Assembly: GCA_031259195.1 (NCBI GenBank) | Contig: JAIRLR010000120.1 | Coordinates: 1 to 7,209, forward strand | DNA length: 7,209 nucleotides | Direction of reading: 5' to 3' | From: Streptococcaceae bacterium | Lineage (GTDB): Bacteria > Bacillota > Bacilli > Lactobacillales > Streptococcaceae | Shown here: positions 102 through 7,192 of the stretch, piece by piece | Layout of the letters: every line of letters starts with the position of its first letter | Position numbering within the stretch: the stretch's first letter is position 1 | Position numbers and translations under genes: made by a program | The notes under the pieces: model-generated | The model's database searches: none | Seen by the model: the letters and a program-made list of their open reading frames with translations, nothing else | Told to the model about the DNA's origin: nothing

Positions 102-471
102 TCGAGGCTTTTTGACGAAAAAAGGCACAAAATGACCAGAAAAGCTGCAATTATGGAGATCATTAACAGGCTCTTATAAGAATACCTAAAAACGCCAGTA
201 CCACCATCTGCTTAACTTGTGGAAAGTTTTCGCTTGAGCGCTTAACGATTTCCACAGGACAATCCAAAATGTTCCTAATCTTACCCGCAAAAGGTTGCCC
301 AATATAGCTGCCATCACAAAGAATATTTTTCACGTTAGGCAGAAAAGCTTGATCGTGATCAAACATTTCGATTGCTCCTGCTTTGTCGCTAATGTTCGCT
401 GTTGTCACATGAATTGCATGAGGAAAACCGTTGGTGTCAACGGCAATATGACGTTTAATTCCTGACACTTT

Positions 472-537
472 TGCGAACTGCCTTAACGATTGGCAAGCGT
501 TAGCTTGGCAGAGTTTAGGCAGGACGTACCTACTCGG
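472..537 (-). repeat. Palindromic insertion unit A (66 bp, in frame)
   Basis: Unit A ends next to unit B and shares with it the flanks TGCGAA(C/T)TGCCTTA at one side and TACCTACTCGG at the other (plus strand). It folds: CTGCCT (478-483) pairs with AGGCAG (517-522), and inside it CAAGC (494-498) pairs with GCTTG (503-507) across a GTTA loop. Its length is 22 codons, and in the transposase frame it has no stop, encoding a peptide that starts PSRYVLPKLC and ends SLRQFA. It resembles in behaviour the Rickettsia palindromic elements that insert in frame into genes; I do not claim it belongs to that family. Confidence 0.75.
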
Positions 538-609
538 TGCGAATTGCCTTAGCGAGTGCCTTACGAAGCTTGACAGAGCTTAGACCTTAGGCAAGATGTA
601 CCTACTCGG
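538..609 (-). repeat. Palindromic insertion unit B (72 bp, in frame)
   Basis: Tandem neighbour of unit A, 24 codons long. TTGCCT (544-549) pairs with AGGCAA (589-594) and AAGC (566-569) with GCTT (578-581). In comparison with unit A the outer C-G pair is replaced by T-A, a compensatory change. In the transposase frame it reads PSRYILPKV, then a TAA stop, and ends SLRQFA like unit A. The stop lies near the 6 bases by which B is longer than A, so it may have arisen after insertion. Confidence 0.75.
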
Positions 610-851
610 TTTACCGCCATCATATCCCTTTTCTTCGGCAGTGTCGGCATTTTTTACGCTCTGTGCGCGGGCGTACAAAAGGTATTTTCATCGCGACCGT
701 CCGCTTGACGAAGGTGTGCTATACTTTTTTTAAAAGTCTTTCCAGCAGAGTTGTTTTATCTTTTGTGGTGTACTCCACTGTTTGAAGTATGTATAAACAG
801 ACTTCCATTTGGGATAATCGTGAGGAAGAGCGCGCCACTGGCAAGTAAGTT

Positions 852-881
852 TTGACAACAGAGTACTACACAAAAGATATC
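852..881 (+). promoter_or_regulatory. Weak candidate promoter upstream of rnc
   Basis: A perfect -35 word TTGACA (852-857) is followed after 18 bases by GATATC (876-881), which matches the -10 consensus at only three of six positions. It lies inside the IS5 remnant, reads toward rnc, and would give a leader of roughly 110 bases. It is the only consensus -35 that I see ahead of the operon. The poor -10 makes this tentative; transcription may also enter from outside the window. Confidence 0.2.
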
Positions 882-990
882 GTATAAGTCATACTGTCTA
901 GGGTTGGTTCGTTTTTTAAAGTTTTTTAACTTTGGACGGATCGCATCAAAGTCTTCGCGTTTCTGAAATCGTAGACAGGTTCTTAGAAAG

Positions 991-6424: not shown

Positions 6425-6438
6425 ATAAAGAATTAAAA

Positions 6439-6580
6439 GCACATATACTCCTCTAAATTGAAAATATGGTTTTTTAAAAAAACTGGAAATTGTCATTGAT
6501 ACGGCTTCTCACGCTCAAGGAAATATCCTTCAAAGTCTCTTTAAAAAAACCGTATTTTCAATTTAAAGGAGTATATGTGC
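6439..6580. repeat. 142-bp MITE-like inverted repeat after ftsY
   Basis: Arms 6439-6475 and 6544-6580 are complementary over 37 positions with one mismatch (C6453 opposite A6566) and one T-G pair (6467/6552), enclosing a 68-base centre. The left arm begins 15 bases after the ftsY stop, so ftsY mRNA reading through would form a very long hairpin. The arms begin GCACATATACTCCT and contain AAATTGAAAATA. The right arm runs into the first recognisable residues of the ISAs1 transposase remnant, so a boundary is hard to set. It may be a miniature IS derivative with terminal inverted repeats, or an inversion-duplication of an IS end. No convincing target duplication was found. It could also act as the 3' end of the operon transcript, but it lacks a classical GC-rich stem plus T-tract. 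Confidence 0.8.
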
Positions 6581-6973
6581 AGTTATTAGCTGAGTGTGAG
6601 GCTTGGTACCAAATAGATCACTATTGTCGTTTTAAAGAACTATGGTTTAAACAAAAATTAAAGCTCAAACTCGAAAACGGGATACCTTCACACGATACGA
6701 TGCAAAGAGTTTTTAAACTTATCGATCCAAACAAACTTGAGGCCTCTTTAGAAGCTGGATACTAGATGTTGCAGGTTCGCCTAAAAGCGGCATCGTTAGT
6801 AGCTGGAAAGACTATAAGGTTTAGTAAACCTATGACAAAAAAGCAGCGCACATGGGAAGTGCGTGCTCTAGCAACTTAGCTCTTGTTATCGCTCAAGTAA
6901 AAACTTATGAAAAATCCAATGAATTAAAGCAACTCCCGAGCTCCTTAATCTTTTGGATGTAAGAACCTGTTAA
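6570..6973 (+). pseudogene. ISAs1-family transposase pseudogene
   Basis: Fragments in order: SICAVIS (6570-6590), then in another frame CEAWYQIDHYCRFKELW and NGIPSHDTMQRVFKLIDP (6595-6732), then WILDVAGSPKSGIV, AGKTIR, YDKKAAHMGSA, LALVIAQVKTYEKSNEL and PELLNLLDVRTC with a stop at 6971-6973. These are the ordered blocks of ISAs1-type transposases (IPSHDTF.RVF..LDP; DGKT; QVK..EKSNE; IPELL..LD). At least four frame changes separate them. The N-terminal DPR region and everything after the LLDV block are missing. The Asp of the DGKT motif is replaced (VAGKT). A stretch open from TTG at 6490 to 6765 covers part of this, but its start lies in the centre of the neighbouring inverted repeat, so it is not a real gene. 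Confidence 0.85.
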
Positions 6974-7082: not shown

Positions 7083-7120
7083 GAAATAGCACCACCGCTA
7101 CGCTATTTCTGCGTTTTTTT
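7083..7120 (+). terminator. Terminator-like hairpin within right repeat
   Basis: GAAATAGC (7083-7090) pairs perfectly with GCTATTTC (7102-7109) around an 11-base loop, followed by TGCG and seven T (7114-7120). It would stop plus-strand transcription coming from the ftsY/ISAs1 side. Stem bases differ from the left copy while pairing is kept. The stem is AT-rich, so efficiency is uncertain. Confidence 0.5.
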
Positions 7121-7144
7121 CTGCAAATTGCTTAAAAATTAACC

Positions 7145-7192
7145 AAAAAACCTGTCGGGTTATTACAAGTTGTTTCAAGCTTTGCTTGATTA
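7145..7192 (+). repeat. Perfect 48-bp inverted repeat, right arm
   Basis: Exact reverse complement of bases 1-48. It includes the motif AACCTGTCGGGTT and most of the hairpin at 7164-7201. Confidence 0.92.

Follow-up and report, generated by a model that had tools for sequence, protein, structure and literature searches.

A likely mobile repeat of about 65 bp, predicted to form a double hairpin and mostly housed in IS5-type miniature transposons, in a genus of the Streptococcaceae

The palindromic insert located in a transposase gene of the window (the whole stretch of 7,209 bp analysed, from a Streptococcaceae genome) belongs to a dispersed palindromic repeat, of which 125 distinct arrays were found in five genomes of one genus (G000–G004). 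The repeat is likely to be a mobile DNA element of very small size, which resides mostly inside transposons and is rarely part of a protein. The account to which we give slightly better than even chances is that of a non-autonomous, precisely inserting hairpin module of about 65 bp, which spreads mainly by hitchhiking in IS5-type miniature transposons. Empty sites, which the sequence-only reading had proposed to look for along with further copies in the genome and its relatives, were found in exact form at three unrelated places, namely the transposase gene and two miniature transposons (carrier 1 and carrier 2). The presence or absence of the unit is exact to the base at all three, and therefore the unit likely moves as a non-autonomous mobile module.

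In the window, positions 472–609 are occupied by a 138-bp insert made up of a 66-bp and a 72-bp unit in tandem, inside an IS5-type transposase gene on the minus strand. Unit A (472–537, plus strand, 66 bp) has the form TGCGAA...CTCGG, and unit B (538–609, plus strand, 72 bp) is a diverged copy, whose best matches show 84.7% identity. The insert sits exactly between two lysine codons of the transposase, and the target (469–612) reads TTT at 469–471 and TTT at 610–612, that is AAA on the transposase strand. The minus-strand reading across the insert is KGYDGGK / PSRYILPKV*ALSSFVRHSLRQFA PSRYVLPKLCQANACQSLRQFA / KVSGIK. Both units are closed by SLRQFA, and in the transposase frame unit A has no stop and unit B has a TAA. 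The coordinates, the unit lengths, the flanking AAA codons, the resumed transposase reading, the open unit A and the shared SLRQFA end had all been claimed from the letters alone, and they were confirmed. The C-terminal part of the transposase past the insert lies at 163–468 (minus strand; DDE_Tnp_1 in the homologous ORF of locus L113), and the frame-broken part of the element upstream of the insert (610–986, minus strand) extends as far as an end with the sequence CTAAGAACCTGTCT. An empty carrier-1 site, TCTCCATAAT^TGCAGCTTTTCTGG, lies at 136–159 on the minus strand in a second element that adjoins the transposase, with 0 mismatches to the pattern. Elsewhere in the window, a 46-nt inverted repeat (6434–6585, arms 6434–6479 and 6540–6585, 89%) overlaps a transposase-associated ORF fragment at 6490–6765 (PF13808, E 4.5e-13), and inverted copies of one repeat (79 nt, 85%) are situated at the contig ends, at 1–79 and 7114–7192, probably marking an assembly break.

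The unit is predicted to form a double hairpin with stem covariation. Its conserved ends, TGCGAAC...GTACCT(A)CTCGG, surround an imperfect hairpin with a variable middle, and full units are 51–72 or 100–108 bp long, typically about 65 bp. The main predicted hairpin of unit A is located at 478–522 (plus strand), with outer arms CTGCCT at 478–483 and AGGCAG at 517–522. The outer arms of unit B (544–594, plus strand) read TTGCCT at 544–549 and AGGCAA at 589–594, so the covariation proposed for the two pairs of arms was borne out. In 34 aligned units, 93.1% of the cells in named stems pair, compared with 22–56% when the partners are slid by 1–3 columns. Two-sided changes were found in 13 cells (shuffled mean 3.3, with 0 of 500 shuffles as high) and in 5 stem pairs (shuffled mean 2.6, 14 of 500 as high). 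They hit 3 of the 5 outer-stem pairs and, in the next stem, 2 of 4; the small second hairpin shows good pairing and zero two-sided changes. Further pair types in the stems of these 34 units were not in excess (13 versus 12.5 in shuffles). Folded as DNA, the plus strand of unit A beat all 200 shuffles (z −4.6), and the minus strand reached z −2.1. The folding energies of unit B (plus strand, z −0.9) and of the 101-bp sister unit (z −0.6) were not outstanding relative to shuffles. Rfam gave 0 matches above the gathering score within the window.

In the genome from which it comes, the 138-bp query had at least 42 matches (of 77 first-look candidates, 40 were scored), and therefore the repeat is not a product of chance. 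Of 58 genomes searched with this DNA query, its own included, the five of the genus were the only ones matched. A covariance model based on 34 units, with 150 candidates scored per genome of up to 403, gave at least 84 matches in G000 and 6, 8, 3 and 51 in G001–G004 (E ≤ 0.01). Under stricter filters, the model matched only these five and G069 among 245 family genomes, the G069 match being weak (E 3.1e-5 per genome, across 245 genomes). The 125 arrays were obtained by an HMM search of the fetched loci, copies with identical surroundings being entered once, and comprise 72 in G000, 35 in G004, 8 in G002, 6 in G001 and 4 in G003. Within Lactobacillales, the host is placed close to Enterococcaceae on the strength of its FtsY, whose nearest match in the named records scanned is from a Lactobacillales metagenome genome (71%), with Tetragenococcus and Enterococcus next. 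One unit is present in 103 arrays, two in 20, three in 1 and four in 1, and the 22 tandem arrays have the same start at each joint. Plasmid and phage records held no match to the repeat, and viral contigs gave 0 matches to one 28-base pattern of it.

Hairpin units were also observed in the sister genus g9 (L322, L324, L327, L328, L329, L330), some of them in tandem arrays of about 98 bp. With their end, (A/G)GGAGT(A/T)GCY, these units immediately adjoin the start codon (ATG) in five different genes, and therefore a ribosome-binding site would lie in the 3′ strand of the hairpin. The downstream proteins are presumably AlsS-, NadR-, LysR- and RecN-like. The g9 hairpin core, CCTTARYGATTG..AGAGYTTAGG, bears a resemblance to the unit of the window. 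Genomes of the genera g5 and g9 (L331–L335, L338–L341) also contain dispersed copies of a second hairpin module, which is close to CAACGTGCCTTAGCGG..CCGCTTAGGCGTTG, and a DNA query holding it matched 10 of the 245 family genomes.

At the transposase site, copies without the unit were found at the DNA level in G001 (contig C29), G003 (C17) and G002 (C13). They read AAR^AAR, compared with AAR-unit-AAA in the filled copies, which agrees with the short A-run suggested earlier as the target; no target base is gained or lost, and there is no duplication. In the alignment of the L113 ORF, which took 14 of the best 120 of 5954 homologues, K45 is directly followed by K68 in 13 of the 14, as (G/S)K-K(V/I)SGIKRH, and L113 has 22 residues between them. 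The insert is also present in the fourteenth homologue, P0001, whose record is very probably the one behind L113 (G003). Single units at this site measure 66 bp in L113, 65 bp in L116, L147, L148 and L149, and about 65 bp, with an altered end, in L120; the window has its 66 + 72 bp, and the copies in L122 and L130 are truncated. The frame is broken by four of the five complete single units (those of 65 bp), and among the transposase-site copies only L113 is open and in frame. The translated transposase copies are mostly broken by stops or frame breaks. The coding region upstream in L113 is frame-broken as well, and one break is common to the window copy; therefore, such copies probably moved with help in trans. 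The AlphaFold2 model of the L113 transposase ORF had a mean pLDDT of 50.7.

Most of the arrays sit within IS5-type miniature transposons (carriers), in each of which the units occupy a fixed place. Most G000 arrays come after TTAGAACCTGTTAACTTGTCTCC..AAT (carrier 1) or AGACCTC..GATCCATGAAAAT (carrier 2), and many G004 arrays are flanked by ends like TAAGARYCTGTTAAC and GTTAACARRYTCTTA. The end of the IS5-type element in L113 and L116, GTTAACAGGTTCTTAG, agrees with the carrier ends, and this resemblance suggests that the carriers are mobilised by the IS5 transposase. Empty carrier-1 sites (at most 2 mismatches) numbered 31, 24, 5, 21 and 1 in G000–G004, with 28 of the 82 free of mismatches and 0 hits for the reversed control pattern. 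Empty carrier-2 sites were detected 13 times in G000 (10 without mismatch), with none in the other four genus genomes and 0 in the control. A search for empty sites of the main G004 carrier found none in G004, and its hits elsewhere were one in G000 and one in G002, each with 2 mismatches. For carrier 1, the rows compared numbered 31 filled and 30 empty, each having a right flank of 150 bp or more; the flank criteria excluded 94 of the 125 arrays, and 20 of the 31 empty sites of G000 were fetched. The filled rows belong to the TTG-type end in 30 cases and to the GAT-type end in 1, and the empty rows to the GAT-type end in 25 and to the TTG-type end in 5. Therefore, only 5 empty rows represent the same end as most filled ones, and the unit favours one end of carrier 1. 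The right-flank trees of the carriers gave 15 occupancy changes on 61 rows (shuffled mean 20.6, lowest 14), which is weak evidence. L182 and L191 are mosaics joining two carriers at a unit and show that recombination also shuffles units.

Unit A of the window has 98.5% identity (one base) to the carrier units L009, L010 and L002, which span both carriers, and at most 90.9% to the six other transposase-site units compared with it. Because it is nearer to carrier units than to those of its own site, unit A was probably imported into the transposase site. On a tree of 52 units, the sequences do not group by carrier: there are 14 changes, against a mean of 15.9 and a minimum of 10 in shuffles, although the approximately 65 columns resolve little. 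The mixing of carriers and the mosaics fit either mobility of the unit or recombination, and mobility is favoured by the exactness of the joint at the transposase site, which is unrelated to the carriers. The joint at the sites with empty copies reads AAT^TGCG (twice) and TTT^TTT. In the 92 arrays with both ends, the left flank ends in AAT in 79 and the right flank starts with TGCG in 40, counts that are not independent because carriers are shared. A TGCG duplication is possible at carriers 1 and 2, because the target TGCG equals the start of the unit itself; it is excluded at the transposase site only.

We attribute the insertion or excision of the unit, as a single-stranded or circular form, to a putative recombinase acting in trans, with hitchhiking to follow. 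Such an enzyme could cut single-stranded DNA at T^T (AAT^TGC, TTT^TTT) or could act by exchange across a 4-bp TGCG core with a circular form. The exchange would yield the two carrier sites, the tandem joints and, given mismatched cores, the transposase site, and the T^T cut would do likewise. Afterwards, the carriers would be amplified by the IS5-family transposase, whose element shares its ends with them. A unit whose carrier enters a gene in the right phase can remain free of stops and would then be part of the protein, which is the prediction for one acyltransferase. The search for a candidate enzyme found none: Y1_Tnp is present in three of the five genus genomes, nearly full length only in G001, and is absent from G002, which is rated 100% complete; no unit lies beside Y1_Tnp in three loci (L136–L138). 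Mobilisation of the IS110 type (bridge RNA) was rejected, the Transposase_20 domain (PF02371) being found in 0 of 5 genus genomes and in 4 of 14 control genomes, and a likeness to integron attC sites was dropped on comparison by eye with their core boxes. The fruitless search for an enzyme, the possible TGCG duplication at carriers 1 and 2, the small number of empty carrier-1 rows of the TTG-type end, the lack of empty sites of the G004 carrier, the mosaics and the unremarkable folds of unit B and the 101-bp unit all weigh against the favoured account. Tentatively, and at somewhat less than even chances, the repeat may constitute a self-standing class of mobile double hairpins of about 65 bp, inserting with base precision and lacking target duplication, stacking head to tail at the TGCG joint, parasitic on miniature transposons and a transposase gene, supplying in-frame protein segments through their carriers, and having as relatives in the sister genus the hairpin arrays that hold the ribosome-binding sites of unrelated genes.

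Other small repeats are dispersed in cyanobacterial genomes, and E. faecalis has the EFAR family. A published description of the present unit was not found among the top results of the open-access literature. The BOX elements of Streptococcus are of composite build, their tandem boxB modules being optional, and S. suis has identical modules between two different pairs of ends (PMC3049150). BOX and the present repeat are both composite short repeats with an optional and tandem internal module; the filled and empty carriers likewise show an optional module of 1–4 units between fixed ends. Unlike BOX, the unit also occurs by itself within a transposase gene, and three places unrelated to one another provide exact empty sites for it. 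The palindromic elements of Rickettsia (PMC10969869, PMC3733652), noted for in-frame insertion (PMC10969869), are palindromic and dispersed like the present unit, which in two open frames is in phase with its host gene. It differs from those elements in that its lengths are not generally multiples of three, it lies mostly outside genes and a CGTC tag is not general among its copies. PMC3733652 describes RAYTs along with the GTAG and CGTC repeats; GTAG REPs resemble the unit as short hairpins, thought to move as single strands, with tandem or grouped copies; the present units are longer than these, GTAG is not at the hairpin foot and is missing from many units, and no RAYT-type gene adjoins. 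A CGTC- or GTAG-tagged REP was rejected (of 116 units, 27 have CGTC next to the stem and 68 have GTAG within the initial 16 nt of the minus strand), as was a GTAG REP with RAYT, since no unit flanks the Y1 transposase genes at the loci named above. The carriers resemble IS5-family miniature transposons in their IS5-type ends and, in L132, in a duplicated TTA. The unit itself, in contrast, has no such ends and no target duplication at the transposase site, and was rejected on that count as a miniature transposon in its own right; at carriers 1 and 2, where the target reads TGCG, a duplication is possible. The GC clusters of yeast mitochondria, judged mobile and associated with putative short duplications (PMC4478555), are likewise very short hairpin DNA whose mobility was judged from present and absent sites and which show merger and shuffling; they differ in the putative AG or ACT duplications and in the compartment, and no sequence kinship is claimed.

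The sequence-only reading had proposed a protein-coding palindromic element inserting in multiples of three, but only 39 of 116 full units are divisible by three (remainders 0, 1 and 2 in 39, 32 and 45), which speaks against that claim and is a refuting outcome that the same reading had named. In the transposase strand and frame 45 of the 116 units are stop-free, the top of the six frames, the next having 38. Among the G000 units divisible by three, 24 of 31 are open in this frame though only unit A of the window lies at the transposase site, and therefore openness is a property of the repeat. The open-frame scan covered 111 arrays, leaving out 14 too near an end; in 13 of them the frame is open for 20 codons or more to either side, and in 2 for at least 45 (L132 and L113); in the next array, L115 (44 codons), carrier DNA is read in another frame. 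In L113 (G003, IS5 transposase) and L132 (G004, acyltransferase), the unit is read on the same strand, as RYILxKLCQ ... QSxxQFA. The open frame of L132 (786–2132; contig C50 of G004, a sister species) has 449 codons and belongs to the OafA-like acyltransferase 3 family (PF01757, E 2.6e-17). It contains a 168-bp carrier with one 101-bp unit, equal to 56 in-frame codons, with the duplicated TTA, and the gene is otherwise intact. The closest homologue, P0122, reads RNSR-HFLENFGM where L132 has 56 more residues, and lacks 9 further residues present near the insert. In the AlphaFold2 model of L132 (60 sequences; mean pLDDT 80.7), block means are 39–63 over the insert (about residues 228–283), with confident helices on either side. 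The acyltransferase gene has thus taken in a whole miniature transposon as 56 in-frame codons of a predicted protein. An in-frame copy in an otherwise intact gene is present in this one case, and the other well-flanked frame is the L113 transposase. A Rickettsia-like element kept for its in-frame insertion is very unlikely and already largely refuted: its support lies in the 22 residues in the L113 ORF and the 56 in the acyltransferase, and against it stand the lengths, the 2 of 111 well-flanked frames, the position of most arrays in non-coding carriers and the frame-breaking units at the transposase site. A generally protein-coding element is not supported.

It is possible, although we consider it rather unlikely, that composite miniature transposons contain the unit as an internal module, similar to boxB, which was lost from them or multiplied within them through slippage and homologous recombination. 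It would then have come to the transposase gene through recombination too, without ever transposing by itself. The fixed place in each carrier, the 22 tandem arrays of 125 and the mosaics L182 and L191 agree with such a module, as do the variable number of boxB in BOX and the modules placed between two different end pairs in S. suis (PMC3049150). However, the unit at the transposase site is joined exactly and has no carrier sequence beside it, and many empty carriers lack the unit to the base. A structured RNA or a regulatory element, such as a leader hairpin, which is mobile by accident only, would explain the stem covariation, the G069 arrays abutting start codons (that weak model match in 1 of 245 genomes) and the ribosome-binding sites held by the related g9 hairpins; since the genus units lie mainly in transposon ends and the window has no Rfam match, we regard it as highly improbable. 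The fragmentation of the metagenome genome into 186 contigs, the several arrays at contig ends and the inverted copies of one repeat at the window ends might raise the suspicion of an assembly artefact arising from repeats, but the same type of joint recurs in five genomes, one of which has 30 contigs and is rated 100% complete, and also in a long open gene, which makes an artefact extremely unlikely.

The hairpin repeat offers, in exact pairs of filled and empty copies at three unrelated sites and in a unit so small, good material for studying the movement of very short palindromic repeats, a standing question for REP, BOX and mitochondrial hairpins as well. The five genus genomes form a ready comparative set for it. 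Moreover, the acyltransferase case indicates that in this group of Lactobacillales, too, such a repeat can enter a predicted protein without breaking the gene.
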